Under the pieces are notes generated by a model, which saw nothing but the letters and a program-made list of their open reading frames with translations, made no database searches and was not told the origin of the DNA. A DNA stretch of 64,000 nucleotides from Bartonella rattimassiliensis 15908 (GTDB lineage: Bacteria; Pseudomonadota; Alphaproteobacteria; Rhizobiales; Rhizobiaceae). The DNA lies in the NCBI RefSeq assembly GCF_000278215.1, contig NZ_JH725064.1, positions 367,587 to 431,586 of the forward strand, given 5' to 3'. A program made the position numbers and the translations under genes. This document shows positions 875 through 58,581 of this stretch, in pieces. The stretch's first letter is position 1. Every line of letters begins with the position of its first letter.

Positions 875-886
875 AGGAGTTTTATC

Positions 887-1087: not shown

Positions 1088-1090
1088 ATC

Positions 1091-1477
1091 ATGCGTTGCG
1101 GGATCAGCGAAAAGGATGGCTCTCTCTTATATGATTGGGACCATTGCCAACAATCACTCCATAAATGCTTAATGACAAGGATAGGAACACGGGTTTTGCG
1201 TCGCCATTATGGGTGTGATGTCAGAGAATTCCAAGACGCTAATGCTGATCCTGCAACAATCTTACGTCTTTATCAAGCCATTGCTTGCGCGCTCGATGAT
1301 CCAGAATGCGGAGAGCCTGGATTCTCATTGCAAAGGATTGATCTGACCAAAGCAACGCGTGAGGGGACATTCCACTTTGTTTTAAGGGGTGTTTTTTATC
1401 CCGATGGGCATTTGGGGGATTGGTCTCATGGGCAAGAGAGGCAATTTCCTTTAGAGGTTTTTTATGGCAGAGCTTGA
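1091..1477 (+). CDS. Phage baseplate wedge protein W (gpW / gp25-like)
   Basis: A 128-residue member of the gpW/gp25 family, the lysozyme-like wedge protein that links the central hub to the sheath base. The typical opening is visible: a short lead, GSLLYDWDHC, then I-x-T-R-x-L-R-R-x-Y-G-C around residues 31-43. Cysteine and histidine content is higher than usual for the family. The gene overlaps the following gpJ gene by 14 bases, suggesting coupled translation. Confidence 0.88.
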   Translation: MRCGISEKDGSLLYDWDHCQQSLHKCLMTRIGTRVLRRHYGCDVREFQDANADPATILRLYQAIACALDDPECGEPGFSLQRIDLTKATREGTFHFVLRGVFYPDGHLGDWSHGQERQFPLEVFYGRA

Positions 1478-2330: not shown

Positions 2331-3436
2331 TGGTCTCGTTGTTATTGCCCCCAAATTCAAGCTTGTTTGAACGCTGCCTTGCTGATGCAATGGCTGTTGA
2401 TGTTCAAGTAAAAAGGGCACTCGAAGATATTTCTCGTGCCAAATTAATCACGCGCCCCCCATCTTGGTTGCCTTTCTTAATTGATGAATATGGTTTACAA
2501 GAATTAAGCCCTTATTTTTTAAATCCTTATGATTTAATTGATCAGGGGCTTGCATGGCAAAATATTCGCGGCTCCCTTGCGGCAATAGAGATGGGTTTGA
2601 GATGGTTAGAGCTTTCTGCGCGTTTTAAGCCCGCATGGTCAGGGCGTGCATGGTGGAATTCCTTTCAACTTGATTTTGACCGGTTGCCTGAACGAGGTAA
2701 TCTTGAGGCGATTGAAGCCATTGTCGACCTTTCCAAAAGCTTGCGCTCTGATTTTCGTCGTGGGACCTATGGTTATGATGTGGGAGCCACAGAAGGCAAT
2801 ATGTCACGCCTTGATGACAGTATGCTGGATTTTGAGAGTGGCGTGCACTTAACAGCTCTTGGCACTCTGTTTTCCTTTGGACGCACAACACAAATCAATC
2901 ACACGCTCACAAAAGAAGAAGGCAAACTTATTGGCAACTGGATTGATGACCTTGACGAGGAGTTAAGCTGGAACCAAATTGATTATCCTTGGGATTTGGC
3001 AAATTTTCCCTGGTGTTCTGTTAAAAAGCATGAGCGTGACATGTTGATGGCAGAATGGTTCCAAAACCGCACGCTTTATTTGGCTTTAAGAGACGCAAAC
3101 AATGCTCTGATTGGGTATCGAAGATGCAGTAGCGTACAGCCTGTTGAACAAGCTTTAGAGGGTGTTTACAGCCATTGTGGCAACAGATTTAACCCTTCCC
3201 CAACTGGCACCATGCTGTTTCTTGCTGCCCGCACAAATTTTGAGGATGTTGAGGACAAACAAGCCGCCTCTGTTTCCCTTCTCGTTCATGGATCCCTTGC
3301 AGAACAGACACCCCCTGGTAAACTTTGGTTAGGGGCTGATGAACTGCGTGGCGGTGTGGAAATTCTCAAAACACCGATCAACATTCCTTTGCGAGCAGAT
3401 GTTCGCGAACAATTCAAAATTTTATTGAGGTTTTAA
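2330..3436 (+). CDS. Phage tail protein I
   Basis: A 368-residue protein of the P2 gpI type, which joins the baseplate to the tail fibres. The first 120 residues carry the family pattern: LLPPNSSLFERCLADAM, then a tryptophan-rich stretch near PSWLPFLIDEYG and IRGSLAAIEMGLRWL. The protein is about twice the length of P2 gpI (176); the extra C-terminal half is probably an added domain I cannot name. ATG 2330 overlaps the gpJ stop; an in-frame TTG lies one codon upstream. Confidence 0.85.
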   Translation: MVSLLLPPNSSLFERCLADAMAVDVQVKRALEDISRAKLITRPPSWLPFLIDEYGLQELSPYFLNPYDLIDQGLAWQNIRGSLAAIEMGLRWLELSARFKPAWSGRAWWNSFQLDFDRLPERGNLEAIEAIVDLSKSLRSDFRRGTYGYDVGATEGNMSRLDDSMLDFESGVHLTALGTLFSFGRTTQINHTLTKEEGKLIGNWIDDLDEELSWNQIDYPWDLANFPWCSVKKHERDMLMAEWFQNRTLYLALRDANNALIGYRRCSSVQPVEQALEGVYSHCGNRFNPSPTGTMLFLAARTNFEDVEDKQAASVSLLVHGSLAEQTPPGKLWLGADELRGGVEILKTPINIPLRADVREQFKILLRF

Positions 3437-3437
3437 C

Positions 3438-6400: not shown

Positions 6401-6581
6401 TGATGGTACCTTTGTCCCTTTAAAACTGGATGAGACAGAACAGTTATCGGAGCCTCTCTGGACAGAGCGAAAATTTATCAGTGGTGACAAAACAGCCAAA
6501 CAAGCGCGCTTAAAATTGACCCTTACCGGTGGACCAGCCGCACGGTCCATGGTGAGCGATTTTGGCGCCGGTATATTATGA
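3438..6581 (+). CDS. Large phage tail protein, DUF4815 family
   Basis: A 1047-residue protein in the slot of the P2 fibre gene H. The N-terminal 150 residues match my knowledge of DUF4815 (FYGRRPFLQAGELNEVQTI, R-x-D-R-L-G-R-L, KEGDRVERADAF). The rest is rich in beta-strand and Thr/Asp, including an ITAFIKIVQGGKEFKEG repeat-like region about residues 300-400. It has no signal peptide or membrane segment. I infer a baseplate-attached fibre or needle-surround protein. It starts one base after the gpI stop, so it belongs to the same transcript. Confidence 0.8.
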   Translation: MKHESGLPFAIDRSVGKDEQQSVVFYGRRPFLQAGELNEVQTIIRGRHDRLGRLVAKEGDRVERADAFVNKDNQSITLTEGKIYIAGDIFPVSDAVLENISMIGRVEIGVKLQKSWLTHEDDPELLGQVPGSLAEGEPGAAREIAKLVWALKDDDQQGVFFPVYILQDGVLIDQKSPSLLEPAMQAIATYDRAHGHYIVGGCRVTALGQEGQKQVFSIQEGEANINGFKRKRLAALRHEEVEDFSTSAIPSETHIFAPQKGKTSFTFKTYYAPIADIQSLLLTKEKTVTVTRGAVASGRDGVPDKSITAFIKIVQGGKEFKEGTDFKKTGDTIDWAPVGDEPLPGSSYKVTYRYRARISADKITEQEIIVSGGAEGGDIIVSYTYKLPRIDRIGFNTKGNVVYIKGISADHPMAPSVPDDVLSLATITNNWLSTPLVVNDGTRVAPYDEMWRYFQRVLSLDRLMQLERIKSNVDSKEPIAKKGMFADPFLDDSLRDEGFPQTGAIGNGLLQLAIDPTFYTARLTAPVTLDWTNEVIIAQELTTACEKINPYQNFAPLPGTVTLTPATDFWHEQRTDWLSGVTNQLTMGWNRGRRIVKTEVRDNLVNATQEQIDFLRQITLNFKIEGFAKGERLETLTFDGVNILPNSSLFANSYGILEGTFKIPKNITAGTKNVVARGKGGTIATGLFTGQGVIDVKVMRRTTTVKIWTAYDPQAQVFTPDETRQITGIDFHLCKIGNQNHDLVIDLVTTENGYPTADIQAQTSYSMKGAKKGWAGARYDVPLLVPDDRLTAFVIKTDDADHAVSLAKLGDFDEEHQRYVSSHPYVTGPRFSSVNAKSWTAHQDEALAFRVLAARYTQTEKTVDLGTFDLVDCSDLQVRAAVELPSSDCSVLFEIERNNGTIYQLLPFQLLSLSEYISEKVRLRAILKGTKKLSPVLFASVQLIAGKIHQTATYVTRAFAFGEKARLTSYIKTFLPGGATFSLEMQLDDGTFVPLKLDETEQLSEPLWTERKFISGDKTAKQARLKLTLTGGPAARSMVSDFGAGIL

Positions 6582-6595
6582 GGGGAGAATGAGAG

Positions 6596-7957
6596 ATGAC
6601 CAAAACCAAAAATCTCGACATGGAATTGCCACAAGAAGGACGTTTTATCAGTTCTGAATTTCCAATCTTGCGTGAAAACCTCAACAAACTTGATCAAGCT
6701 CTTTCCGATGTTGAGGAAAAGGCGAAGGGAAAAGCGCCCACAAAACACACGCATACGATCAGCGAAGTCAGTGGTCTTGAAACAGCCCTTAAAAGCAAGA
6801 TGGCAGCGGATAAAACCTTCACTTTTGCCGATTTAAGCGATATCGAGGGAGCAAAAGATGCCGCCAACAATTATGTTCTCTATAAATCAAGCAACAATAA
6901 TTTTACCTTTGGCAGTGCTGTCTCATTGTTAGGTGCACATCAACATAAAACCGAAGATATCGTAGGGCTTGATGATTTTAGAGCTAAGATCAATCAAGAT
7001 CTGACCAGCTATGGGCGCTTAGCCAGCCCAAATGAATGGAAAAATTACAATAAATTTACCAGCAAAGTCACAATGAGTGGTGGCTTAGAACTTTTGGGTA
7101 ATTCGCTGTTTAGCCTTATTCAGAATGGTGAAGTGGTCACCCATCTAAGCGCAAGCGGAAGCTTGCTTAAAGGACCTTTGAAAATCGATGGTGATCTTGT
7201 TTATACGAAAGCGCAAGTAGATGCAGCTATCTTGGCAGAAAGAGAAAAAATTAAAAAAGATTTGATTGAGAATATCATTAACTGGCCTGCACTTGCTGAT
7301 GCTGAACTGCTGTATACACAAAATGGAAAAATTCAATGGCCAGCTTGGGTAACGAACCAAACCAAGGTTGAGATCCAAGCTTGGGGTGGTGGGGGTAGTG
7401 GCGGTGGATCGGATACTCCATATTTGGGAGGCGGTGGCGGCGGTGGCGGTTGCAGCGTGTGGTATGGCTATAAAACAAGTTTAAACGGTCATGAAGATAT
7501 CACAATTGGTAAGGGAGGAGCTTCTGTTTCAGGGCGGGGTGTACAAGGTAAATCTGGAGAAACAACAATCATTGGCAAAAATTTTATTACCGCTACAGGA
7601 GGATGTAATGGAACTGCTGCTTATTATAACACATCATCAAGAACGGGTTACTCAGGCTCTGGTGGCGCTGGAGGAGTTGGTGGAAATTTGGGTTTAGCAA
7701 CAGACGAACATCCAGGACTTGCCAAAGGCGGCAATGGTTATGCTGGAACGAATGGAAGAAGCGGTATAAGTGGTAACGGTGGTGATGCTGGAGGCGATAC
7801 ATCAAGAGGTGGCTCTGGTGGGATGGGACAAGGTTCCTATAGTTCAGGAAAAGCAGGGCGTGGTTTTGGAGGTGGCGGTGCTGGTGCTCACTCTGATTCT
7901 TCTCCAAGTGGTGCTGGAGCCGATGGCGCTGTTCTCATAAGATTGTGGAAAGATTAA
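6596..7957 (+). CDS. Phage tail fibre with glycine-rich C-terminal domain
   Basis: A 453-residue probable host-binding fibre. Residues 1-60 are acidic and helical (IlE-type lead with LRENLNKLDQALSDVEEKAKG), followed by HTHTISEVSGLETAL, a repeat type common in fibres. Residues about 262-450 are extremely glycine-rich (AWGGGGSGGG, GGGGGGGGCSVW and many GG-turns) and end in ADGAVLIRLWKD, as in fibre tips that form a polyglycine-helix sandwich with variable loops. It has a strong ribosome site (GGGGAGA) and a terminator-like hairpin downstream. Confidence 0.85.
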   Translation: MTKTKNLDMELPQEGRFISSEFPILRENLNKLDQALSDVEEKAKGKAPTKHTHTISEVSGLETALKSKMAADKTFTFADLSDIEGAKDAANNYVLYKSSNNNFTFGSAVSLLGAHQHKTEDIVGLDDFRAKINQDLTSYGRLASPNEWKNYNKFTSKVTMSGGLELLGNSLFSLIQNGEVVTHLSASGSLLKGPLKIDGDLVYTKAQVDAAILAEREKIKKDLIENIINWPALADAELLYTQNGKIQWPAWVTNQTKVEIQAWGGGGSGGGSDTPYLGGGGGGGGCSVWYGYKTSLNGHEDITIGKGGASVSGRGVQGKSGETTIIGKNFITATGGCNGTAAYYNTSSRTGYSGSGGAGGVGGNLGLATDEHPGLAKGGNGYAGTNGRSGISGNGGDAGGDTSRGGSGGMGQGSYSSGKAGRGFGGGGAGAHSDSSPSGAGADGAVLIRLWKD

Positions 7958-8052
7958 TTACATAACCAAAGAGAGCACATTTCAAATGGTGCTTATTGTA
8001 TAAACGAGCTTATATGATTTTCTTTCTTTAAAGTCTTTTTTAAAGATCTTTC

Positions 8053-8075
8053 AAAGCCCTTTTAAAGGGCTTTTT
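8053..8075 (+). terminator. Intrinsic terminator after the fibre gene
   Basis: AAAGCCC and GGGCTTT form a perfect 7-bp stem around TTTTAAA, continuing into a run of five T. It lies in the 188-base gap between the fibre and sheath genes, the only long gap in the tail module, so the sheath-to-gpD genes may form a separate transcript. Confidence 0.65.
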
Positions 8076-8145
8076 GACTGACAGTGTCAGACTTATGAAA
8101 GGGAGCTCTTGTTGTTATGGTCTCTTCATTGATTTGGAGAGCAAA

Positions 8146-9435
8146 ATGGCAATAGAATTTAATCATGGTATCCGCCTCATTGAGGATGGTCAAGCTTCTC
8201 GACCTTTAGAGATGTTTAGCCAAACTGCCATAGGGGCGGTTGTGACAGCCCCTGATGCGGATGCACAAACCTATCCCCTTAATGAGCCCGTGTTGGTCTT
8301 CACCCATGAGACAGAGAAAATCCAAAAGCTTGGGCGAAGGGGCACCGCCCTTGATGTCATTAACGCCGTGTGTGCGCAAGGAATTGAGGCACAAATTATC
8401 CTTGTGCGGGTGGAAGAAAAGTCAACTATTGCTGAAACGCAAGCTGAAATGGTGGGCTCTCATGCTCACCTGACCGGTGTACATGCTTTGACCCATGCGC
8501 GGGGGCATTTGGGTGTGGAACCTGGAATTCTCTTAGCGCCGGCTTATAGTGCAGGGCGGATTGATAATGGCAAAAACCCGCTAGCAGACGCTTTAGAACA
8601 GGTTGCTGAAAAGCTACAAGCCATTGCTGTGTTTGATACGGGGGGTAAAAATACGCAAGAAAGCCTTGCCTATCGTGCAGATTTCTCCTCACGCTTTTGT
8701 TATCTGATTGATCCCTTTGTACGGGTGGCAAATGGTGATGGGGGTGTGAGTATAAAACCCGCAAGTCCTTTTGCTGCGGCGATGTTTATCAAACGTGATA
8801 AGCAAAGGGGCGGTGTTTTTTGGTCTCCTTCCAACCAAGAAGTGAAAGGTATTTTAGGGACAGCGCGCCCGATTAGCTACTTTGATGGGGAAATTGATCA
8901 TGAGGCAAACCGTCTCAATCAAGCCGATATTGCGACCTTTATTCCCGCACGGCTTAGCCAAAATGCGCAAGAAAACATGGCTGCCAATGGACGCATTTTA
9001 TGGGGCAATCATACCACCTCCAGTGATCCGCTTTGGCGTTTTGTCAATGTGGTGCGCACCCGTGCGGCCTTGGAAAAAACTATCATTAACAATTTACGCC
9101 CTTGGGCGAATGATGAAAACTTGACCGGTCAACATGTTATTGCCATTACCCGCAGCCTCACACAGTTTCTTGATGATATGATTGCCCGTGGTGCACTGCT
9201 TGGTGGGCGGGTTTGGTTTGATCGTGATTTAAATTCAAACAGCAATTTACAACTGGGCAAGTTGCGGGTGGAATTTGATGCAGAAGAAGTGCTTCCTCTA
9301 GAAGATTTAAGCTTTGGCAGCCGGCGCAATGGTGCTTACTTTAATCGGCTGGCGCAAGATATCCAAAAGAAAATGACGTATGCCTTTGGCGATACGCTTG
9401 AGGGTTATCGCAAAGCAGCAAGGAGCAACATATGA
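8146..9435 (+). CDS. Phage tail sheath protein (FI-like)
   Basis: A 429-residue contractile sheath subunit of the P2 FI family. The family opening (FNHGIRLIEDGQASRPLEMFSQTAIGAVVTAPDAD) and the C-terminal core (LWRFVNVVRTRAALEKTI, residues about 305-330) are both clear. I chose ATG 8146 because GGAGA lies 5 bases upstream and the protein then begins MAIEFNHG; longer in-frame starts cross the terminator region. The TGA stop overlaps the ATG of the tube gene (ATGA). Confidence 0.95.
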   Translation: MAIEFNHGIRLIEDGQASRPLEMFSQTAIGAVVTAPDADAQTYPLNEPVLVFTHETEKIQKLGRRGTALDVINAVCAQGIEAQIILVRVEEKSTIAETQAEMVGSHAHLTGVHALTHARGHLGVEPGILLAPAYSAGRIDNGKNPLADALEQVAEKLQAIAVFDTGGKNTQESLAYRADFSSRFCYLIDPFVRVANGDGGVSIKPASPFAAAMFIKRDKQRGGVFWSPSNQEVKGILGTARPISYFDGEIDHEANRLNQADIATFIPARLSQNAQENMAANGRILWGNHTTSSDPLWRFVNVVRTRAALEKTIINNLRPWANDENLTGQHVIAITRSLTQFLDDMIARGALLGGRVWFDRDLNSNSNLQLGKLRVEFDAEEVLPLEDLSFGSRRNGAYFNRLAQDIQKKMTYAFGDTLEGYRKAARSNI

Positions 9436-9950
9436 CTTTAAGAATTGTTCGTGGTTTTACCCTGATTGTTGATGATGATGTCAATCTCCATCTTGATCTT
9501 GAAACCCTCAAATTGCCTACGTTGGAAGAAATCACAGAAACCTATCAACCAGGGGGCTCTGATATGCAAATTGATGTTGCTGGTCTTGGTGTCAAAGCTT
9601 TGAGCATGCAAATGAAAATCCGCAGTCACACTCCAGAAGTGATTGGTATCTTTGGTGGTTCTCCTGGGCTTCGTCATAAATTTACCGGTAAAAAGCATGT
9701 GGTGTCTGAAGAAGACGGGCGCGAGCATGAACATTCCATTGATGTGACAGGGCGTCTGGTCAAGGTGGATAGCGAAGGCTTAACGGCTGGAAAGGCCACA
9801 GGCTATGATTGCGAGATCAAAAATATTTGGGACTATACGGAATTTTGGGATGGTTCTGTTTTGCACCGCTTTTCTTTTAAACGGGGTGGTTGGCTTGTGC
9901 GCAACGGGCAAGAGATCGGTGAACGGCGCCGCTCTATTCTCAATTTATAG
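9432..9950 (+). CDS. Phage major tail tube protein (FII-like)
   Basis: A 172-residue protein of the P2 FII family that polymerises into the inner tube through which DNA passes. Family signs are the N-terminal TLIVDDDVNLHLDLETLKLP, PGGSDMQIDVAGLGVKAL at about residue 40, and a central REHEHSIDVTGRL strand. Length is essentially that of P2 FII (172). Its start overlaps the sheath stop by four bases, typical of this pair. Confidence 0.93.
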   Translation: MTLRIVRGFTLIVDDDVNLHLDLETLKLPTLEEITETYQPGGSDMQIDVAGLGVKALSMQMKIRSHTPEVIGIFGGSPGLRHKFTGKKHVVSEEDGREHEHSIDVTGRLVKVDSEGLTAGKATGYDCEIKNIWDYTEFWDGSVLHRFSFKRGGWLVRNGQEIGERRRSILNL

Positions 9951-9959
9951 GAATTGATC

Positions 9960-10373
9960 ATGACAAGTTTACAAACCAGCCTTGATATAGAGCTCCAAGT
10001 GCCCCTTGTTTATAAGGAGAGTGATGGCAAAGAAGTGATACGGCAAAAATTGACCTTTTATCGCCCAAACTTCAAGCAAGCACGCCAATTAGCCGTGTTG
10101 ATTGGACCGCAGTTGGCAAAGCTTGTTCTGCCTAGCTTAGAAGAGGATAAAACAACATTGAGCAATGATGTTCTCATTCTCAAGCTTTGTGAGGCATTGC
10201 TTACCCATGAGGCGATGGAAGGAATAGCCGTGCTTTTAGCCGATATGTCTCATGAATCTGTTGAACTCATTAATCGTCTTGATGTTATCGATATTGTTGC
10301 GGTGTTGAAGGCTTTTTTTGCTTTTTTTCCCACACGCCAATCCTCTCTGCCAGACGATTTGGAGCAGAACTAG
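9960..10373 (+). CDS. Phage tail assembly chaperone (gpE-like), unshifted product
   Basis: A 137-residue protein in the position of P2 gpE, which with its frameshifted form helps load the tape measure protein during tail assembly. The N-terminus is beta-rich (IELQVPLVYKESDG), then helical. I chose ATG 9960 over the upstream TTG 9954. The final 60 bases carry two consecutive T-TTT-TTT slippery heptamers in frame, so this is the shorter of two expected products. Confidence 0.8.
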   Translation: MTSLQTSLDIELQVPLVYKESDGKEVIRQKLTFYRPNFKQARQLAVLIGPQLAKLVLPSLEEDKTTLSNDVLILKLCEALLTHEAMEGIAVLLADMSHESVELINRLDVIDIVAVLKAFFAFFPTRQSSLPDDLEQN

Positions 10374-10495
10374 CCCTTTATTATCACTGGGCGCCTTCAG
10401 AGATTAATCAGATGGATTGGCTTGATGTGATTGCTTATCGAGAAGAACTCGCGCGCTTAAAAGCCCAAGAATATGAAAGCCAAATGTTAGGATAA
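9960..10495 (+). CDS. Tail assembly chaperone frameshift fusion (gpE+E'-like)
   Basis: If ribosomes slip back by one base on the second T-run (10322-10328), reading continues without a stop to TAA 10493-10495, giving about 178 residues. The added 55-residue tail contains YYHWAPSEINQM and ELARLKAQEYE, resembling the short E' segment of P2-type phages (tryptophan, then P-x-E-I, then a charged helix). The frame is exactly -1 relative to gpE, as known for P2 E+E'. The reading is supported by sequence; the slip itself is inferred. Confidence 0.75.
10313..10328 (+). promoter_or_regulatory. Tandem -1 ribosomal frameshift slippery sites
   Basis: In the gpE frame the codons GCT TTT TTT GCT TTT TTT CCC create two canonical X-XXY-YYZ heptamers (T-TTT-TTT), at 10313-10319 and 10322-10328. 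Both allow a one-base backward slip into the open E' frame. Having two sites nine bases apart is unusual. Confidence 0.7.
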
Positions 10496-10504
10496 GATGC
10501 GATC

Positions 10505-12841
10505 ATGGATGTTTCTCTTGTTGTACGTTTTGTCAATCATCTGCAAGAGGGGATCGCTTCTGCCAAACGAGACTTAAGAGCCTTTAGTGCCGATGTTGCG
10601 CATTTCCAACAACAAACACGAAAACATTTTAAAGGGTGGTTTGACCCTGAGCATCTTGCCGAAGCAACAGCCAATGCAGAAAATGCTTTTAACCATGCGC
10701 GTGGGCGCATGGTGGGGGCGATTGCGCAAACCGCCACCTTGATTGCCCCTCTTTATAAAGCCATGCAATTTGACCAATCGATGAAGGGCTTGGAAAAAGT
10801 TCTGGATGCCTCTCTTGATCGCTTAAAAGAATTGCGTCGTTTTGCCCTTGAGACCTCCACAAAAATCCCCTTGGCTGCGCGTGAAGTCTTAGAATTGATG
10901 ACCAGTGCTAGCCAAGCAGGCATTGGTGAACAAGATCTCGAGGCTTTTAGCATTTATGCTGCCAAAGCGGCCGTGGCTTTTGATATGACTGGGGAGCAGA
11001 TTGGTGAGCGCTTTGCCAAATTGCGCAATGTCTTTAAGCTTAATCAAGCAGGCATTGAAGATTTAGGGGATGCTATCAATCATCTCTCTAATCACATGGC
11101 AGCAAAGGCCAGTGAAGTTTCTGATTTTACCAATCGTGCCACCGGTGCGGCAACCATGTTTAAACTGACAGCTCGCGAAACTGCAGCTTTTGGTACAGCG
11201 ATGATTTCTGCTGGGATTGTTCCAGAGAGTGCTGCACGTGGTTTCAATGCGATGAGTGCCCGTATTCAGGCAGGAGGTAAGCATATTGAGGATGCTTTTA
11301 CCAATATTGGGCTTTCCCGCCAGAAATTCATGGAAGATTTGGAGAAAGATGCCACCGGTACTTTGGTGCGCTTTTTTAATGTATTGGGTCAATCCGAACA
11401 AGGGATGCGTTCCCTGATTGCCATTGCGGGGCGGGATTTTACCGGCGATTTTGCCAAATTGGTGGGGAACCCCGAATTGTTAGGGCAAGCTTTAGAGTTT
11501 GTAAAAGATCCACAAGTCTTTAAAGGCTCTGTAGAACAAGAAGCCGACAAACAAGCAACCGGTGCCATGCGGCAATTTGAACTGTTGCAAAACCGTATTG
11601 TGGCTTTAGGCGTCACCATTGGTGAAGTGCTCTTGCCCCATGTGAACAGTCTCATGGACAGTGTTGGTGGTTTTGTCAATGGGCTAATGGCGTGGGCCAA
11701 TGCGCACCCAACTTTAACGGCTGTCATTCTCAAAACCATTGCCGCCCTGATGGCTTTTAATATTGCTCTGCGTGTGTTGCGTTTTACTCTTGCTGGGACG
11801 CGCCTTGGGCTTCTTCAATTAATTAGCTCTTTTATTAAACTTGGTGGTGTGAGCCGCACGCTGAAGGCAAGTTGGCGGGGCTTAGCAGCTTCAGGGCGTT
11901 CCTTGAAGTTATTGATGGCAGGGCTTGGGGCAAGTTCATTCAAACTCTTACGCCCCATGACTTTACTGGTGGCTGCGTTTCGGGGAGTAGCCGTCTCAGG
12001 TGCAGCATTGGTGAGTAGCTTTGGTTTTGTTGGAACAGCAATAGAAATGGTTGGGGCCGGTATTGCCGCCGTTGTGGGGGCTGTTTTTAGCCCAATAGGG
12101 GCTTTGGTTGCAGCTGTTGTGGCTGTCATTATGGCGGCTGGCTTTGCTTTGTGGAAATATTGGGATCGTTTCTCTTCTTTTGTTAAAGGTTTTGCACGGG
12201 GGATCATGCGGGCTTTTGGGCGTGCCTTTGAAGCCGTTATGCGTTTTTTTGGTGCTGATCCCACTACCATCACCCAATGGAAAAACATCATTGCTGCTGC
12301 TTTTGATTTTTCTCAAGCTTGGCAAAAGTTTAAACAAGGGCTTGCCTCTGTTTCCCAAAGCTTTGCAAGCTTATGGGAGGGTTTTAAACAAAGGCTTTCT
12401 GATTTTTGGGGATGGTTGAGTGGCTTTTTTGCCCGCGAAAAACTCTCTGAAGATGCCAAGGCTGGTATGGAACAAGCTGGCGAAGATCTGGCCCATTGGA
12501 TTGTCGATGGCTTTATGTCATCCATCTCACAATTGACAGATTTTTGTAAATCGTTGCCCAGCCGCATTAAGGGGTGGATTGGATCCATTGATGTAAGAGA
12601 GCTTTTGCCAAGTTTTTTGGGGGGCAAAACGTCAATCCAGCCTATAGCACAATTTGCGGGGGCGGGGCGTGCAAATGTTCCTTTCATAGAAGCAAAAAAC
12701 AAAGACCGCTCCCCCATCACCCACAATCAAAATGTCACAGTGCATGTTAATGGGGCGCGTGATCCCATTGCCACCGGTCGTGCGGTTGCCCATGCTTTAC
12801 AACGGGCACGCGCCAATGCGCTGCATGGCGGGACAGAATAA
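10505..12841 (+). CDS. Phage tail tape measure protein (gpT-like)
   Basis: A 778-residue protein that sets tail length and is ejected during infection. The N-terminal half is helical, and the TIGR01760-type core is visible at residues about 80-330 (ETSTKIPLAAREVLELMTSASQAG, F-G-T-A-M-I-S-A-G). Hydrophobic, probably membrane-inserting segments lie at about 395-430 and 495-550 (AIEMVGAGIAAVVGAV). The C-terminus ends in a polar tail (HVNGARDPIATGRAV). P2 gpT is 815 residues, so the tail should be of similar length. It starts 9 bases after the E' stop. Confidence 0.92.
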   Translation: MDVSLVVRFVNHLQEGIASAKRDLRAFSADVAHFQQQTRKHFKGWFDPEHLAEATANAENAFNHARGRMVGAIAQTATLIAPLYKAMQFDQSMKGLEKVLDASLDRLKELRRFALETSTKIPLAAREVLELMTSASQAGIGEQDLEAFSIYAAKAAVAFDMTGEQIGERFAKLRNVFKLNQAGIEDLGDAINHLSNHMAAKASEVSDFTNRATGAATMFKLTARETAAFGTAMISAGIVPESAARGFNAMSARIQAGGKHIEDAFTNIGLSRQKFMEDLEKDATGTLVRFFNVLGQSEQGMRSLIAIAGRDFTGDFAKLVGNPELLGQALEFVKDPQVFKGSVEQEADKQATGAMRQFELLQNRIVALGVTIGEVLLPHVNSLMDSVGGFVNGLMAWANAHPTLTAVILKTIAALMAFNIALRVLRFTLAGTRLGLLQLISSFIKLGGVSRTLKASWRGLAASGRSLKLLMAGLGASSFKLLRPMTLLVAAFRGVAVSGAALVSSFGFVGTAIEMVGAGIAAVVGAVFSPIGALVAAVVAVIMAAGFALWKYWDRFSSFVKGFARGIMRAFGRAFEAVMRFFGADPTTITQWKNIIAAAFDFSQAWQKFKQGLASVSQSFASLWEGFKQRLSDFWGWLSGFFAREKLSEDAKAGMEQAGEDLAHWIVDGFMSSISQLTDFCKSLPSRIKGWIGSIDVRELLPSFLGGKTSIQPIAQFAGAGRANVPFIEAKNKDRSPITHNQNVTVHVNGARDPIATGRAVAHALQRARANALHGGTE

Positions 12842-12865
12842 TGACAAAATGAGGGGAGGGAGCTT

Positions 12866-13327
12866 ATGAGAGATCCTTTGATGATGTTAGGTCCCCATCT
12901 CTTTTATGTGGACTGGCTGAATTTCCAATCCTTTGAGGAAGAGTTCTCTGCCTCATGGGTTTGCCTAGAGCGTTTTGGCAGGCCGCCCGGTTTGCAATTT
13001 ACTGGTTATGGTAATGATCCCAAAACCATCCACGGGGTATTGTTTCCAGAAGAATTTGGAGACCGTGCAGCTCTTGATGCCATCACCAGAACCATTCATG
13101 CCGCCAGGCCCGTTCAGATGATTCGTTGGCTGAGTGATAATGGCTATAGTGCTATTCTCCATGGATCTGTGGTGATCACCAGTATCACGAAAGACCACGA
13201 CTATATTAGCCGCTCCGGTCAATCACAACGCATTCGCTATGCGATCAGTCTCTTGCCCTTTTTTGATGGCGGAAAACCGCAAGGGCAATTCCAAGTGGGC
13301 TATGATCAAAGGGGGCAAACGCTATGA
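12866..13327 (+). CDS. Phage tail protein U (tail terminator family)
   Basis: A 153-residue P2 gpU-type protein, thought to cap the tail tube and sheath. Recognisable parts are the MLGPHLFYVDWLNFQSF lead (P2 gpU proteins open with M-x-x-L-G-x-F-x-F) and the Y-x-G-x-D-P-x-x-I-x-G segment near residues 51-60. It has a strong GGGGAGGGAG ribosome site. The stop overlaps the gpX start by four bases. Confidence 0.88.
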   Translation: MRDPLMMLGPHLFYVDWLNFQSFEEEFSASWVCLERFGRPPGLQFTGYGNDPKTIHGVLFPEEFGDRAALDAITRTIHAARPVQMIRWLSDNGYSAILHGSVVITSITKDHDYISRSGQSQRIRYAISLLPFFDGGKPQGQFQVGYDQRGQTL

Positions 13328-13578
13328 AGATACCAGAAAAGCACCTTGTTGTAACACTAGAGGATATGAGTCTTGATCTCCTCTGCTTTCAACATGCCAT
13401 GGCTGTGTTAGGAGCTAAATCTCAAGTTGGTTTCCTTAAAGGGTATTTAGAAGCTACACTTGAAACCAATCCGGGTATTGCAGGATATGGAGCTCTTTTG
13501 CCACGAGGCTTAAAAGTCATTCTGCCTGAGTTTGTCTGCCAAGAAAAGAACAGCGTGGTGAAAAGGCTATGGGACTAA
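13324..13578 (+). CDS. Phage tail protein X (LysM-like)
   Basis: An 84-residue P2 gpX-type protein, a small LysM-like subunit near the tail tip. The family signature G-x-x-L-P-x-G-x-x-I-x-L-P is present as YGALLPRGLKVILPE near residues 57-71, preceded by a long helix ending in LEATLETNPGIA. It overlaps gpU by four bases, and its stop overlaps the start of gpD. Confidence 0.85.
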   Translation: MKIPEKHLVVTLEDMSLDLLCFQHAMAVLGAKSQVGFLKGYLEATLETNPGIAGYGALLPRGLKVILPEFVCQEKNSVVKRLWD

Positions 13579-14579
13579 TGCGTACACATCCCTTTATTGA
13601 GGTGAGGGTGGGGGAGAGGCTTGTTCATGAGGTTTTTTACCAGCGTCTTTTAACGGCAACCATCACCGATCATGCAGGCAATGAAACCGATACATTTGAA
13701 GCCGAGTTTGATGATAGTGGCCATGATTTAGAAGTTCCTGCAAGCAACAGTACTCTACAGGTTATCTTTGGCTATGAGAACAGTATTCGTGCCTTTATGG
13801 GGCGTTTTGTTGTTGAGGCGGTTATCAGTTTTGGTGGGAGTGATGGAGAGATTTTACGCCTTTGTGGCAAAAGCGCTTCGATGCAGAAAGAACTCAAAGA
13901 ACAGGCGAGTGAACATTTTGACCACCAAACCATTAGCGAGATCGTCGAGACACTTGCCAAACGCCATGGCTATCAAGCAAAGGTCAGTCCCCAATTTACC
14001 AAACAAATTCTTCCTTATGTGGTGCGCACCGATCAATCGGCGGTTGACTTTTTAACCCGTCTTGCGGACCGCATGCGTGCGCGTTTTTTAATCAAAGACC
14101 ATAAGTTTTTATTTTTAAGCGGGGACAATTTACCAGACCTCACCCTCCATAAACATGACTGTTCAAGCTGGGAATTCACATTAGAGCCACGCACGCAATA
14201 CGGCATCATTGAAGCTTCTTATTTTGATCGTTCAAAAGGGCAACAGTGCCAAGTCAAGCATCAAACAGGTTTTAGCGGTCCTGTGCGTCGTCTGCGGACT
14301 TGCTACCCTTGTGAAGAGGAAGCACGAGCTGCCGCTGCCTCTGAGTCGGATAGGCTTTGCCATGCAGTGGGCAGTGGTTCTTTGACCCTTCCCGGACGCC
14401 CTGAAATCATGGCTGATCAACCTCTGCTCCTACAAGGGTTTCGTGGAGAAATCAATGGACCATGGAAAGCCGCAACCGTTACCCACAGCTATGAAAAACA
14501 AAGCGGATACACAACAGAAATCACCTTTGAGGCACCAATCGAAGGAAAGGAAACAGGAGAAAAGAAAACTCTTCAGTGA
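13569..14579 (+). CDS. Phage tail hub / late control protein D (gpD-like)
   Basis: A 336-residue member of the Phage_GPD family, forming the baseplate hub onto which the gpV spike is mounted. Family features are HPFIEVRVGERLV at the start, an early TDTFEAEFDD strand, the central AKRHGYQAKVSP and VVRTDQSAVDFLTRLADRM, and the GRPEIMADQPLLLQGF segment near the C-terminus. ATG 13569 overlaps gpX by 10 bases; ATG 13578 (TAATG with the gpX stop) is an equally good start. It is the last recognisable phage gene. Confidence 0.92.
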   Translation: MGLMRTHPFIEVRVGERLVHEVFYQRLLTATITDHAGNETDTFEAEFDDSGHDLEVPASNSTLQVIFGYENSIRAFMGRFVVEAVISFGGSDGEILRLCGKSASMQKELKEQASEHFDHQTISEIVETLAKRHGYQAKVSPQFTKQILPYVVRTDQSAVDFLTRLADRMRARFLIKDHKFLFLSGDNLPDLTLHKHDCSSWEFTLEPRTQYGIIEASYFDRSKGQQCQVKHQTGFSGPVRRLRTCYPCEEEARAAAASESDRLCHAVGSGSLTLPGRPEIMADQPLLLQGFRGEINGPWKAATVTHSYEKQSGYTTEITFEAPIEGKETGEKKTLQ

Positions 14580-46844: not shown

Positions 46845-48170
46845 TTAATAAGCTACAGTATAGCAGTTAAAATTTGCTTTCTTCAATGTAGAACAAGCAT
46901 CGAATGCAGCTTTTTTTGTTTGAAATCCTGTAAATCGCGCTCGATAATAATGCTGCCCATTTTTTTCAAATAGTTGCATCTGTGAAGATGCGTACTTTAA
47001 AGTGGGAAATGCTGTATTTTTTGCTTTTAAGAGCAGAGCTCTTGCTTGTTCTTTACTAGGAAGAGAACCAATTTGAACAGCCCATCCAGCATTTGTGGAA
47101 AAAGAGACAGTTACCATTTTATCATTTTTAACTAGTATAGCTTTTTGAGGATTAGGTATTGGTATAATTATTTTATTAACAGCAGTTATTGCGATATTAG
47201 AATTTTTAGGTTGTTCTGCAAATGCTGTCAACATAGTCGAAATTTCATCATCAAAATTGCTTGAATCAGCTTTAATAGTTGGTATAGGAGTGTTTGCACC
47301 AGTGGGTAAGTGATAATGTACAGAGGCCATTAAATGTCCATCATTTTTCATTTGACTTGCTTTTGGTAAATATTGATTTAATAAGCTAGCCATATGCTTG
47401 TCACGTGCGGTAGATGATTTACCTCCCATAACAACAGCGACAACAGAGCGTCCCTCAAGACGTATCGAAGTTGCTAAATTAGAACCTGACATTTGTGTGT
47501 ATCCCGTTTTAATTCCATCAACACCTTTCATCATTTTTACGAGTTTGTTGTGGTTATTAATCGTATGTCCACGGAAATTAAAACTTTTTATTTTGAATAA
47601 CTTATATTGTTTTGGAAAATGTTTACGCAAAGCTAATGACAAAGTAGCTATATCTCGCGCCGTAGAATAATTGCGCACATCCGGAAGTCCTGAAGCGTTT
47701 GCAAAATGTGTATGCTTCATACCAAGTTTATGAGCCTTTGCTGTCATCATTTGAGCAAATTTTTTCTCATTACCTCCAAGATATTCTGCAATGGCAGCAG
47801 CAACATCATTTGCGGATCTTGTAATGAGTGCTTTAGCAGCTGCTTCTGCAGAGATCGTTTGGCCTGCTTTAAATCCAATTTTGGTTGGTGGACGCATTGC
47901 AGCATCATGTGAAACAGGAATTGGTGTATTTGGTGTCACACGACGCATCTGTATAGCTTCAAAGAGTAGATACAGTGTCATCATTTTTGTTAAAGAAGCA
48001 GGATAACGTTTCAGTGTCGCATTAGCTTGAAATAGAGTTTTTCCTGTAATAGCATCTATGACAATAGCAGCATACTTATCAGGATATGCTTCTTGAGGTG
48101 TAGCTAATGCCCAACAACAAGAAAAAACTAACATAACAAAAGAAATTGCTATTTTTTTATAGCAGCGCAT
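46845..48170 (-). CDS. D-alanyl-D-alanine carboxypeptidase with SPOR domain
   Basis: A 441-residue periplasmic penicillin-binding protein of the S11 family that trims the terminal D-Ala of peptidoglycan stems. A signal peptide spans residues 1-23 (FVMLVFSCCWALA). The catalytic motifs are SLTK (residues 59-62), SAN (about 123) and KTG (about 228). The last 80 residues form a SPOR domain (AVQIGSLPSKEQARALL ... YRARFTGF), which should target it to septal glycan. An in-frame GTG at 48194 would add eight residues; ATG 48170 fits the signal peptide. Confidence 0.92.
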   Translation of the reverse strand: MRCYKKIAISFVMLVFSCCWALATPQEAYPDKYAAIVIDAITGKTLFQANATLKRYPASLTKMMTLYLLFEAIQMRRVTPNTPIPVSHDAAMRPPTKIGFKAGQTISAEAAAKALITRSANDVAAAIAEYLGGNEKKFAQMMTAKAHKLGMKHTHFANASGLPDVRNYSTARDIATLSLALRKHFPKQYKLFKIKSFNFRGHTINNHNKLVKMMKGVDGIKTGYTQMSGSNLATSIRLEGRSVVAVVMGGKSSTARDKHMASLLNQYLPKASQMKNDGHLMASVHYHLPTGANTPIPTIKADSSNFDDEISTMLTAFAEQPKNSNIAITAVNKIIIPIPNPQKAILVKNDKMVTVSFSTNAGWAVQIGSLPSKEQARALLLKAKNTAFPTLKYASSQMQLFEKNGQHYYRARFTGFQTKKAAFDACSTLKKANFNCYTVAY

Positions 48171-48194: not shown

Positions 48195-48534
48195 TTGCAG
48201 TATCCTATTTCTCCATTTATTTTAAGGACCTATAAAGTTTCCTTTTTTGTAACTTGTTGATGCAGTTTAGACGAACGGTATTACTAATTTATTTACAGAA
48301 GTTATTTTATGAGCGACTTGAAGCCAATCATTAGGGGGAAAGCTTTTTTCTTATACTAACAGGTATTGCAATAGTTAAGAAAGAACTTAAAATTAATAAA
48401 ATATGTGCTGCATGGAACACTATAATGGAACAAACGCTCATAATAAGCTCTAGACTTCATGTTATGCATAATGAAGTATTATGCATAATGAAAAGGGCAA
48501 GAATTAGAACGAAGGGAGGCATGGTGCGGTTAGA
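48195..48534. other. Spacer upstream of the clpS remnant, with a tandem repeat
   Basis: 340 bases, AT-rich, between divergent transcription units. TTATGCATAATGAA occurs twice with a 17-base period (48462-48475 and 48479-48492). The frame at 48425-48634 crosses into clpS in the wrong phase, although part of it (GGMVRLECLRLEQ) might descend from an original ClpS N-terminus. Confidence 0.5.
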
Positions 48535-48813
48535 ATGTCTAAGGCTAGAGCAAAACTCAAAAAAACTAGATTATATCAAGTTCTTTTACTCAATGATAAT
48601 TATGCATCTATGGATTTTTTTGTTTTCATTTTGAAAAACTTTTTTAAAAAAGTTTCGAAGAAGAAACACGGATTATGTTAAATGCTTATCACAAGGGGAT
48701 AGGTGAATGTGGAGCTTATACTTAGTGAAGTTGCTGAAATGAAAATAGTACAAGTGAGGGAGTGTGCGCGTCAAAATAAACAACCGTTACAATGTGTAAT
48801 GGAATGGAAGTGA
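48535..48813 (+). pseudogene. clpS: ATP-dependent Clp protease adaptor ClpS, frameshifted remnant
   Basis: Three segments of a ClpS protein are readable in order but in two frames. From ATG 48535: RLYQVLLLNDNYASMDFFVFILKNFF equivalents up to the T6/A6 run at 48640-48651. Then, one base out of frame, FEEETRIMLN and KGIGECGAYT. After an extra G near 48725, the original frame returns with EVAEMKIVQVRECARQN and QPLQCVMEWK, ending TGA 48811-48813. One-base deletion plus one-base insertion leave internal stops. ClpS delivers N-end-rule substrates to ClpA; here the substrate-pocket motif NDDYTPM has also drifted (NDNYASM). clpA starts 6 bases later. Confidence 0.85.
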
Positions 48814-48819
48814 GGAATT

Positions 48820-51171
48820 ATGCCATCTTTTACACCTAGTCTTGAAGAGGTTTTGCATCGTGCATTAACAATTGCCACTCAAGCGCGGCATGAATATGCA
48901 ACATTAGAGCATCTTCTCCTTGCACTATTAGATGATGCCGATGCAAATTCCGTTATTCAGGCATGCCAAGTAGATGTGGAAGAATTGCGAGAGCGCTTAA
49001 CCAATTATCTTCGCTCAGAGTTAGATGAGCAGATTAAAGCTGATGAGGATACAAAACCTACAGCTTTTTTCCAACGTGTTATTCAACGTGCGATGATTCA
49101 TGCACAATCTGTTGGAAAAGATGAAGTATCAGGGGCAAATGTTCTTGTTGCGATTTTTTCTGAACATGAAAGCCATGCAGCATATTTTCTTCAAGAAATG
49201 GGAATGACGCGTTATGATGCTGTACGTTTTATTTCACATGGTATCACGCATGAGGATGGATTATCCATGTTGCTTGAAGGACTTGAAGAGCAATTAGATC
49301 AGCAGATTTTGGACAATGGCGAAAGGGTAACAAGTGTTCTAACGAGCTATTGTGTTAATCTCAATTGTAAAGCACGTAATGGAAAAATTGATTTATTAAT
49401 CGGCCGTGAAATCGAAATTTCACGCATAGTTCAGATTTTATGTCGGAGGTCAAAGAACAATCCGCTTTTGGTTGGTGATCCTGGCGTAGGAAAAACCGCT
49501 ATAATTGAGGGATTGGCAAAGCGCATTGTTGATGGACAGGTGCCTGAAGCTTTATCAAATGCAACGATATTTTCTCTTGATATGGGGGGGCTTGTTGCTG
49601 GTACACGTTATCGCGGTGATTTTGAAGAACGATTAAAGCAAGTTATTAAAGAGTTTGAGCTGTATCCAGATGCTATTTTATTTATTGATGAAATTCATAC
49701 CTTAATTGGAGCAGGGGCGACATTAGGAGGAAATATGGATGCAGCAAATCTTTTAAAACCAGCATTATCTTCTGGAACTGTGCGGTGTATTGGTTCAACA
49801 ACTTACAGAGAATATCGCAAATTCTTTGAACAAGATCGTGCTTTAGAGCGCCGTTTTCAAAAGATTGATATTAATGAACCTTCTGTTACCGATACCATTA
49901 AAATTTTACAGGGGATGAAGCCTTACTTTGAAGATTTTCATCAGATTAAATATACAAATCAAGCGATGAAGGCATCTGTAGAACTATCTTCACGTTATAT
50001 GATTGATCGTAGATTACCTGACAAAGCAATTGATATTATTGATGAAAGTGGCGCAGCACAAAAGCTTTTACCACAAAAACAGCGCAAAAAGAGTATAGGG
50101 ATTAAAGAAATTGAAGCTACTGTTGCTACAATTGCAAGGATTCCACCAAAAACAGTTTCGCGGAATGATCAGAAGATACTGAGTAAGCTTGAAAGAGAGC
50201 TCAAGCATGTTATTTATGGGCAAGATCAGGCAATTTCCGTATTAGTGTCATCAATTAAGTTGTCGCGAGCAGGTTTACGTGAACCAGATAAACCAATAGG
50301 AAGTTATTTATTTTCAGGGCCAACAGGTGTAGGAAAAACTGAAGTTGCAAAACAGCTTGCATCGTCTTTAGGCATTAAGCTATTGCGTTTTGATATGTCA
50401 GAATATATGGAGCGGCATACGGTAGCACGCTTAATCGGAGCACCTCCAGGTTATATAGGGTTTGACCAAGGAGGTCTCCTTACAGATGCAGTTGATCAAA
50501 AACCTCACGCAGTCCTATTGCTCGATGAGATTGAGAAAGCGCATCCAGAGTTACTTAATATTTTATTGCAGATCATGGATTATGGTAGATTAACAGACAA
50601 TAATGGTAAGAAAATTGATTTTCGCAATATTATTTTGATTATGACAACCAATGCTGGTGCTTCAGATATGGCAAAATCAGCTATTGGATTTGGAAAAATA
50701 CAGCGTGATAGTGAGGATGTCGAAGCAATCAATCGACTATTTACACCAGAATTTCGTAATCGATTAGATGCAATTATTCCGTTTGCACCTTTATCTCCAT
50801 TAATCATTAATCAGATAGTGCAAAAATTTATTTTTCAACTTGAAGCACAATTAGCTGATCGGGGGATTTCGTTTGAATTAAGCCCTTCTGCAACTTTATG
50901 GCTTTCTAATAAGGGATATGATTTCCATATGGGAGCACGCACATTAGGACGTGTTATACAAGAATACATTAAAAAGCCATTAGCTGATGAAATTTTATTT
51001 GGAAAATTACGCAATGGTGGCATTGTTCACGTATTGACGCAAAAGTCAGATGGCGAAAAAGAAAAATTACAGTTAAAAATTTCCTCTCCCGATATAGCTG
51101 TTAGCGCAAAGAAAAATAAAATGAAAAATTTTACAAAAAAACGTGTAGGAAAGAAAAGCACAACATCTTAA
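48820..51171 (+). CDS. clpA: ATP-dependent Clp protease ATP-binding subunit ClpA
   Basis: A 783-residue AAA+ unfoldase that feeds substrates to ClpP. The N-domain (residues 1-150) begins PSFTPSLEEVLHRAL; D1 has Walker A GDPGVGKT and Walker B LFIDEIHTLIG; D2 has GPTGVGKTE and LLLDEIEKAHPE. The ClpP-contact loop region IGFGK (I-G-F/L) is present after DMAKSA. The C-terminus is a lysine-rich tail. Its usual partner clpS, immediately upstream, is broken. Confidence 0.95.
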   Translation: MPSFTPSLEEVLHRALTIATQARHEYATLEHLLLALLDDADANSVIQACQVDVEELRERLTNYLRSELDEQIKADEDTKPTAFFQRVIQRAMIHAQSVGKDEVSGANVLVAIFSEHESHAAYFLQEMGMTRYDAVRFISHGITHEDGLSMLLEGLEEQLDQQILDNGERVTSVLTSYCVNLNCKARNGKIDLLIGREIEISRIVQILCRRSKNNPLLVGDPGVGKTAIIEGLAKRIVDGQVPEALSNATIFSLDMGGLVAGTRYRGDFEERLKQVIKEFELYPDAILFIDEIHTLIGAGATLGGNMDAANLLKPALSSGTVRCIGSTTYREYRKFFEQDRALERRFQKIDINEPSVTDTIKILQGMKPYFEDFHQIKYTNQAMKASVELSSRYMIDRRLPDKAIDIIDESGAAQKLLPQKQRKKSIGIKEIEATVATIARIPPKTVSRNDQKILSKLERELKHVIYGQDQAISVLVSSIKLSRAGLREPDKPIGSYLFSGPTGVGKTEVAKQLASSLGIKLLRFDMSEYMERHTVARLIGAPPGYIGFDQGGLLTDAVDQKPHAVLLLDEIEKAHPELLNILLQIMDYGRLTDNNGKKIDFRNIILIMTTNAGASDMAKSAIGFGKIQRDSEDVEAINRLFTPEFRNRLDAIIPFAPLSPLIINQIVQKFIFQLEAQLADRGISFELSPSATLWLSNKGYDFHMGARTLGRVIQEYIKKPLADEILFGKLRNGGIVHVLTQKSDGEKEKLQLKISSPDIAVSAKKNKMKNFTKKRVGKKSTTS

Positions 51172-56624: not shown

Positions 56625-57765
56625 GAAGATTTTGTTGCTAAAAAAGATGTTATATTCGCAGCATATTCATTGTCTCTGTAGATGAATAATAGGAAGTGAT
56701 GTGCGCTGTAATAGGATTACATTCTTCACGTAAAACAAAATACCGCCGTATTGCACATTTGCGTACTTTTTAACACATGTCTTAAAGTGATTCACAATTA
56801 TTTAGTGATATCATCTGTAAAGAGTGTAACGATAAAGCTTTCATGAATAATATAAAATTTATAAAATACTCCCATTTTTATACATAATACACGAAATTAA
56901 GTAGGTGCCATTAGACGATTTGCCAGCTTTTGGGAGAGCCTATAGTTTTTAATGCTTGAGAGCTTTCATAAAAGGCGTTTTTGTATAGTTTTATCCACAC
57001 GTCTGCTCCGCGTGTTGATGTCTAAGCAAGTAATTTTAACTGATTCAATCTAAAATAGGTTTAAAATGAGAGAGTTTTAGGATATTTAGAAATCTAATTT
57101 ATCTTGATAAAAACGCTTAATTATCGCTATGAATCAATATCTTCTCTATACTGGCAAAGTGTGAGACAAGAAGATATTTCATCGTTTTATTATCTTAATA
57201 TGGGAGAGATTAATTGGAAAGGCCTAATATTCTTTAAATTTGTGTGGTGCGTCGTGTTTTTTGCTGTAAAATATTCTTTAATAGCCATGATAAAGGTTTG
57301 TGTTCAGCGTGTCTTGGTTAAATTGCATAATAAAAAAGCATTATTAGAGGTTATCCAAATATTCTAAGATAGGCATTGGAGAAAGAGTATAACGCAAAAT
57401 ATAAGCTTTAATCTTTCTCTCACTTTCCACTATAAAATATTTTAGTGGAATCAATCAAGTAGACGTTATGTAGTATAATTCGTTTTTAAATGATAGATAG
57501 TTGATAGATAAAGTATTTTTATACAAAATCTAGATTAGTTAATTTATTTTATAGGACAGAGATGATCTCTTTTTCATTATAGGGGAGATTTTTGAAGCTG
57601 TTTTCATTGATTATTCGTCTTATAAGCGTTATTTTGGTGGACTATTTTATTTATAAAAAATATAAGAGGAATTTGTATCAGTGTGAAATAAGAATACTGC
57701 GTAGAGAAGTTTTTTGCATCAATTTTGATGCTTGTATTTTCTATTTTTATTGTTTGGATGTTGTT
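56625..57765. other. 1.1 kb frr-cdsA gap: uppS slot without intact uppS
   Basis: In Rhizobiales relatives this position holds uppS (undecaprenyl diphosphate synthase). None of the UppS motifs (MDGNGRWA, the NYGGR region, WPDF) is readable here. The best open stretch is an 87-codon frame at 57104-57367 whose start (MIKT ... SISSLYWQS) weakly recalls the UppS R-T-G-G-E-x-R-L-S-N-F-L-L-W-Q segment. The region is otherwise AT-rich and full of stops. A second long frame at 57592 runs into cdsA and may be an upstream extension. Confidence 0.5.
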
Positions 57766-58581
57766 TTGTCTAATTTGGCTTATCGTGTTCTGACTGCTTT
57801 TGTTTTTGGTATTATTGCATTGTATTTAACGTGGTTGGGAGGAACCTTATTTTTTTTGTTTGTATGGTGTATTGGTGGTTTTATTCTTTATGAGTGGATG
57901 AATATTACTAAAGAGAAATGGTGTGTTCTACAAAAAATATTAGCAAGTGTTTTTTATTTACTTTTTGGTTTGTTTTTAGTGTTGAGAGTATCTGCTTCAT
58001 CGAATTTTTGTGTTTTAATGGTTTGGGCTGCAGTGTTGGCTATCATAGCCATAAAAAAGAGTGGTTGGGTTTTTTGTGGTTTTTTATATGCCTCTTTCCC
58101 TGTTGTTGCTTTATGCTTTTTACGGGGGCATGAGATATTGGGATTCCAAGTTATTATTTTCTTATTTGCGATAGTATGGGGAACAGATATTGGTGGATAC
58201 TTTATCGGACGTGCATTGGGGGGAGCTAAATTAGCACCACAGCTTTCTCCTAATAAAACGTGGTCAGGAGCGTTAGGGGGGACATTTATTGGAGTTTTCA
58301 GTGGTATATGGGTTGCTTTTGGATTTTTTGATATAAATTTAGCAAATTTTTTTGTGCTACTCCTTACACTTGTTTTATCAATTGTTTCACAATTGAGTGA
58401 TTTAGGACAATCATGGCTAAAAAGGTGTTTTTCCGTTAAAGATTCTAGTTCTTTATTGCCTGGACATGGAGGCTTTATGGATCGTATGGACGGATTGGTA
58501 GGGGCAGCTTTCTTCCTTTATTTAATTGGTGCAATTATATCTGATATGGATGCACCTTTTAATCTTTTTAGTATGATTTAA
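57766..58581 (+). CDS. cdsA: Phosphatidate cytidylyltransferase (CDP-diglyceride synthase)
   Basis: A 271-residue membrane enzyme making CDP-diacylglycerol for phospholipid synthesis, with about eight helices. The CDS signature is near the C-terminus: SQLSDLGQSWLKRCFSVKDSSSLLPGHGGFMDRMDGL. I chose TTG 57766, giving (M)SNLAYRVLTAF, the usual Bartonella-type start; the frame is open upstream to ATG/TTG near 57592 with about 58 extra residues unlike the family. rseP follows after 15 bases. Confidence 0.85.
   Translation: MSNLAYRVLTAFVFGIIALYLTWLGGTLFFLFVWCIGGFILYEWMNITKEKWCVLQKILASVFYLLFGLFLVLRVSASSNFCVLMVWAAVLAIIAIKKSGWVFCGFLYASFPVVALCFLRGHEILGFQVIIFLFAIVWGTDIGGYFIGRALGGAKLAPQLSPNKTWSGALGGTFIGVFSGIWVAFGFFDINLANFFVLLLTLVLSIVSQLSDLGQSWLKRCFSVKDSSSLLPGHGGFMDRMDGLVGAAFFLYLIGAIISDMDAPFNLFSMI

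Follow-up and report, generated by a model that had tools for sequence, protein, structure and literature searches.

Decay of clpS beside an intact clpA in Bartonella rattimassiliensis, a probable instance of stepwise loss of the N-degron pathway

The clpS gene of Bartonella rattimassiliensis 15908 (G000 in our genome samples) is very probably a pseudogene and one instance of a stepwise loss of the N-degron pathway. The N-recognin ClpS brings proteins that begin with Leu, Phe, Tyr or Trp to ClpAP, and the pool of its substrates is widened by the transferases Aat and Ate, which attach Leu or Phe to other N-termini. The course of events proposed here would begin with the loss of Aat (the L/F-transferase) and of Ate/Bpt in the common ancestor of the host-restricted Bartonella, by parsimony a single loss. 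Selection on clpS would then have relaxed, the gene would have been broken on about eight separate branches, that of B. rattimassiliensis among them, and decay of clpA would have followed in one clade of five genomes and in a single further genome. Behind this reading stand the lesions in the gene, the failure to find a second copy or either transferase family in the genome, the separate losses of clpS elsewhere in the genus, a raised dN/dS and the remnants of clpA, all of them observed and described below.

The clpS remnant and its lesions

The remnant lies on the forward strand at positions 48481-48813 of the window, that is, the whole stretch of 64,000 nucleotides that was analysed, in a frame that is conserved in relatives, and it was aligned with 18 relatives of the lineage. 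With stops read through, it matches the ClpS profile PF02617 at 50.3 bits (cut-off 23) over positions 48559-48795 (G000:C1:416145-416381); one TAG and one TAA fall inside this match, and no open reading frame runs through the ClpS domain. An earlier, sequence-only reading of the window had given the extent of the remnant as 48535-48813, of which the end stands and the start probably does not; as judged from the alignment, the gene is likely to begin at 48481. This start is favoured because the N-terminal extension (MHNEKGKNW... / MHNEKGKNWDEG...) is kept in relatives and because five of the eight that were aligned over this part have ATA in place of the ATG at 48535. Codon 9 of the extension is a TAG (48505-48507, forward strand) where seven of the eight aligned relatives have a Trp codon, a stop that counts as a lesion only if translation begins at 48481.

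The first frameshift is found where a run of six T (48640-48645) meets a run of six A (48646-48651), the latter shorter than in all eight aligned relatives, which have at least one more A; the frame therefore runs into a TAA at 48679-48681. The second is an extra G at 48725, absent from all eight, which restores the original clpS frame, and this frame then continues to its normal stop at 48811-48813. The list of mechanically called reading frames accordingly holds a 48-aa frame from the internal ATG (48535-48681, forward strand), ending at the same TAA. The T/A run, the TAA and the G all lie exactly where the sequence-only reading had put them, and the alignment with relatives, which it had proposed as a check, agrees with it on both indels. 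Such a gene would yield no ClpS. Translation starting at 48481 would be stopped by the extension's TAG, and translation starting at the internal ATG by the TAA that ends at 48681, in either case short of the His66 region and of the domain's second half.

Six bases separate the clpS stop from the ATG of clpA, which is intact and encodes 783 aa (48820-51171, forward strand; reading-frame list and search of genomes). The GAGG at 48812-48815, a likely clpA ribosome-binding site judging by its placement, overlaps the clpS stop and is kept in all eight aligned relatives. On the other side lies a dacA-like gene (46845-48170, reverse strand), presumably encoding a D-Ala-D-Ala carboxypeptidase, which is located upstream of clpS/clpA or their remains in 71 of 71 genomes. 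The lesions, the alignment and the full-length clpA together bear out the claim that clpS is a frameshifted pseudogene directly upstream of an intact clpA. A second clpS, for which a search had also been suggested, was not found with PF02617 in this genome at E <= 10, since the sole other match (17.2 bits) falls within the same remnant. A search of the phage collection gave no match.

The substrate pocket and the pattern of substitution

The nearest solved chain, 3dnj_A, which we take to be Caulobacter ClpS, belongs to the same family and is like the present gene in its place before clpA; the intact ClpS of a relative (G066) matches it at 2e-37. Compared with this chain, the B. rattimassiliensis frame is broken and carries D36N, T38A, P39S and H66Y in E. 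coli numbering, which by a gapless PDB alignment is the numbering of the present frame minus four. According to the accessible part of a published account, Asn47, Asp49 and His79 of Caulobacter ClpS bind the alpha-amino group of the peptide (PMC12493166). Through the shared NDDYTPM motif Asn47 was placed at position 38 of the present frame, Asp49 at 40 and His79 at 70. N38 is kept in B. rattimassiliensis and the other two amino-group contacts are replaced (D40N and H70Y), at positions where none of the 59 intact clpS genes in the genus varies. The motif DDYTPM served to pick these genes, and since each of the 59 genomes that have clpA and no listed lesion matched it, none was dropped. Pocket positions have changed more often than the rest, at 5 of 12 against 10 of 97 other codons considered (Fisher p=0.011), and the drift of the substrate-pocket motif that had been read from the sequence carries weight, D36 and H66 both being replaced. 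Elsewhere in the genus, Asp replaces the conserved pocket Asn (position 38; E. coli N34) in the open clpS of G007, G008 and G023, which occupy two separate places in the tree, the intact genes having 56 N and 3 D at this position.

Changes private to B. rattimassiliensis with respect to 18 genomes of its lineage number 16 nonsynonymous (one of them a stop) to 2 synonymous in clpS, with no sign of purifying selection, as this is indistinguishable from the neutral 3.14 : 1 (binomial p=0.27). On the same branch clpA has 30 nonsynonymous to 25 synonymous changes and departs from neutrality (p=0.004), and the two genes differ from each other (Fisher p=0.011). The corresponding private counts in six relatives are 5:7, 8:5, 4:2, 2:5, 1:1 and 0:1 for clpS, and 38:45, 7:29, 11:29, 7:13, 2:9 and 3:8 for clpA, the 30:25 of B. 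rattimassiliensis being higher, so that clpA as a whole may be relaxed there. The other genes on its branch give a mixed picture, with high ratios in dacA (20:21), cdsA (17:15), ridA (11:6), hit (7:4) and frr (5:4), and ratios that are not high in rpsB (5:14), tsf (6:12), pyrH (3:16) and rseP (7:14). The ten neighbouring genes that were checked, clpA included, are all open.

Transferases and clpS losses in the genus and the order

In a sample of 71 Bartonella genomes, B. rattimassiliensis included, Aat (PF03588) and Ate (PF04377, ATE_C) score over cut-off in the same 14, and the other 57 are without either. B. rattimassiliensis is among the latter, its best Aat match (E 0.29) lying below cut-off and ATE_C giving no match. 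We infer that the 57 are the eubartonellae as described in the accessible part of PMC6519360, and the 14 the bee-gut and related bartonellae. As neither Aat, Ate nor a working ClpS was found, no branch of the N-degron pathway appears to remain in B. rattimassiliensis, a functional form of which would combine ClpS with at least one of the two transferases.

The clpS gene is open from the motif to the end in 59 of the 71 genomes, survives as a remnant in seven (G000, G001, G006, G013, G024, G038, G047) and is unmatched at E <= 1 in five (G010, G015, G036, G041, G042). The lesions observed vary among the seven remnants, and the 12 genomes with a broken or undetectable clpS fall on eight branches of the tree with intact relatives between them. 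This tree was made from nine genes of the present locus in all 71 taxa and rooted with the 14 transferase-bearing genomes. Five of its nodes have support below 80; three of these are near B. rattimassiliensis and do not join loss branches, and two concern the order of deep lineages, which makes it less certain that the five-genome clade stands apart from G006, so that the losses may number seven. Loss of clpS is seen in 12 of the 57 transferase-less genomes as against none of the 14 that bear transferases, and the probability that all eight losses would fall in the transferase-less clade is P=0.026 if they fell by branch length. The remaining 45 of the 57 keep clpS with its pocket residues nearly all intact.

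A wider sample, drawn from the order, has 247 genomes, two of them Bartonella; among the 245 others clpS is present in 243, Aat in 238 and Ate in 236. The two without clpS (G110 in 550 contigs, G120 in 150 contigs) are drafts in which both transferases are present. Of these 245 only five are without both transferases, all of genus g49 and of 1.3-1.6 Mb (G116, G147, G176, G217 and G236 of the order sample), and clpS is kept in all five. Transferase loss thus permits clpS loss and does not force it; taken with the 45 clade genomes that keep the gene, g49 indicates that it is not sufficient.

Relaxed selection on clpS before its loss

One-ratio codon models (GY+F3X4, fixed topology), from which genomes with a broken clpS were excluded, gave an omega for clpS of 0.121 in the 45 transferase-less genomes (0.069-0.208 in 30 codon bootstraps) and of 0.013 in the 14 transferase-bearing genomes (0.005-0.023, likewise in 30). 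In 18 close relatives, on short trees, omega was 0.129. The two sets differ by a ratio of 9.3 in clpS, by 1.3-3.2 in the seven control genes and by 2.7-3.0 in clpA, a contrast whose size is rough because the controls (13-14 and 44-45 genomes) all come from one locus and carry no bootstraps, and because the 14-genome trees are long (5-11). From the smaller to the larger set, omega rises from 0.030 to 0.039 in frr, 0.015 to 0.031 in pyrH, 0.025 to 0.066 in tsf, 0.019 to 0.035 in rpsB, 0.033 to 0.078 in hit, 0.041 to 0.132 in ridA and 0.084 to 0.124 in dacA, and clpA goes from 0.021 to 0.056 in its N-domain and from 0.025 to 0.076 in its core. Among the eight genes (clpS and the controls) clpS shows the strongest constraint in the smaller set, and in the larger one just two genes are less constrained.

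The fate of clpA

Both parts of ClpAP are intact in B. rattimassiliensis, clpP being found on contig 2 at 1.3e-86 and without stops. Across the genus, at a threshold of E <= 1e-100, clpA goes undetected in exactly the five genomes that lack a clpS match. All five retain degraded pieces of its second half in an interval of about 1 kb between dacA and the gene hit, so that clpA was lost by decay and deletion. In G038 clpS is broken and clpA split. In G037 clpA is split and clpS open, contrary to the proposed order, and a loss of clpA before clpS was considered for this genome and set aside: its essential rpsB is split too, and the clpA split is therefore left out of the count of losses as a probable assembly error.

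The essential gene rpsB is divided between two frames in both G037 and G040. These splits are probably sequencing errors, and counts of pseudogenes in the two genomes need care. Relaxation of the ClpA N-domain after loss of clpS was also looked for and not seen: six clpS-broken genomes show no excess of change, with a ratio of 0.75 where 44 others have 0.70 (p=0.37 by permutation).

A proposed course of events and its alternatives

ClpS is described, in the accessible parts of two accounts, as binding N-termini with Leu, Phe, Tyr or Trp, docking on the ClpA N-domain and inhibiting the turnover of SsrA-tagged substrates (PMC9663308, PMC8138137). Once Aat and Ate were gone, ClpS would have been left with N-degrons made by cleavage only, and clpS, now less needed, would come under weaker selection; as the genome abounds in A/T runs, indels could then break it. 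The substrates remaining to ClpAP would be those that do not depend on ClpS, such as SsrA-tagged proteins; the altered choice of ClpAP substrates that the sequence-only reading foresaw would follow from ClpS biochemistry as given in part of PMC9663308. That the loss of the transferases caused the relaxation is the link in this chain that we hold with less assurance, as somewhat the better account of the cause: the transferases were lost only once, and the effect of that loss is confounded with those of host restriction and of generally weaker selection, the seven control genes having risen too.

Whether clpS is broken at all could be questioned on the ground that its first indel sits in a homopolymer and that the split rpsB genes of G037 and G040, in the same locus, suggest that errors of this kind probably exist in the collection. 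An intact clpS with indels that are artefacts of sequencing or assembly is nevertheless very improbable, given two indels and a stop within 221 bases, the 16:2 excess of nonsynonymous change, the two invariant residues replaced and the open state of the neighbouring genes in the same assembly; genuine decay, which the sequence-only reading had preferred to sequencing error, is borne out. It is harder still to credit that programmed frameshifting or transcriptional slippage yields a full-length ClpS here, for the slippery T/A run at the first shift has no counterpart at the second (48725), relatives are in frame and need no shift, and two of the three amino-group contacts would be lost regardless.

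The remaining alternatives accept that clpS is a pseudogene and concern only the cause. Genome decay of a general kind, unconnected with the N-degron pathway, in which a dispensable clpS is lost at the background rate, would fit the rise of dN/dS in all seven control genes within the clade; it is unlikely, as clpS falls from first to sixth of eight genes in constraint and no control gene, albeit all are from one locus, is up by more than 3.2 times. An adaptive loss seems less likely again. By that account ClpS, with the transferases gone, mainly hinders the turnover of SsrA-tagged substrates by ClpAP, which accords with the inhibition reported in the accessible part of PMC9663308, with the eight loss branches and with the preferential alteration of pocket positions. 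Against it, the substitution pattern of B. rattimassiliensis fits neutral drift (p=0.27), 45 of the 57 genomes keep clpS, and so does g49. A stronger form of our own proposal, in which the pathway is dismantled across the mammal-restricted Bartonella in a fixed order (transferases, adaptor, unfoldase) and selection promotes the loss of ClpS, as ClpAP is then available to SsrA-tagged proteins, we regard as doubtful.

Other observations in the window

Between frr and cdsA (56625-57897 of the window) there is no gene for the isoprenyl transferase UppS (undecaprenyl diphosphate synthase, PF01255), and PF01255 is unmatched in the whole B. rattimassiliensis genome at E <= 1, a search in which 14 of 14 control genomes match. 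The profile scores over cut-off in 15 of the 71 Bartonella genomes, namely 13 of the 14 that bear Aat and Ate and two of the 57 that do not (G006, G046). Among the 13 is G014, though a change of frame splits its uppS; the one of the 14 without a match over cut-off is G062, a draft in which the contig breaks off early. Recognisable degraded pieces of uppS lie at the locus in nine of the 55 other transferase-less genomes. The enzyme makes the lipid carrier of peptidoglycan and is called essential in the accessible part of PMC6339874, and no paper joining Bartonella, undecaprenyl and uppS was found. The absence of uppS may matter more than the loss of clpS, and it raises the question of how the lipid carrier is made, or whether a substitute exists.

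At about 281-14579 of the window there are reading frames that look by eye like those of phage tails (for example 10505-12841, 778 aa). This run, ahead of an apparent nuo operon, is perhaps the end of a prophage.

Relation to known systems and implications

Gene loss and pseudogenes with small indels are commonplace in host-restricted bacteria. The present case is like them in its small lesions and in affecting several lineages, but here the losses appear to be ordered along one pathway. Set beside the bacterial N-degron pathway (ClpS-ClpAP with Aat/Bpt), B. rattimassiliensis is alike in keeping clpA and clpP and differs in that no Aat, Ate or working ClpS was found. The pseudogenization itself is thus ordinary, and what may be new is the recurrence of clpS loss, its order and the ninefold rise in clpS omega. 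No report of clpS loss in Bartonella was found in the open-licence literature, as judged by titles and the beginnings of abstracts, and the accessible parts of PMC12258705, PMC7966870 and PMC6519360 do not report the series of losses.

If the order of dismantling is indeed fixed, the genus would form a natural series of intermediates in the loss of the N-degron pathway. The case illustrates the way in which a degradation pathway may be dismantled, including the component that is lost first and the time until the adaptor can be dispensed with, and it bears on what ClpAP does without ClpS. Close genomes with and without clpS at one conserved locus would offer a natural comparison of what the adaptor does to the proteome, and the role of ClpS when no transferase makes its substrates would become directly testable.
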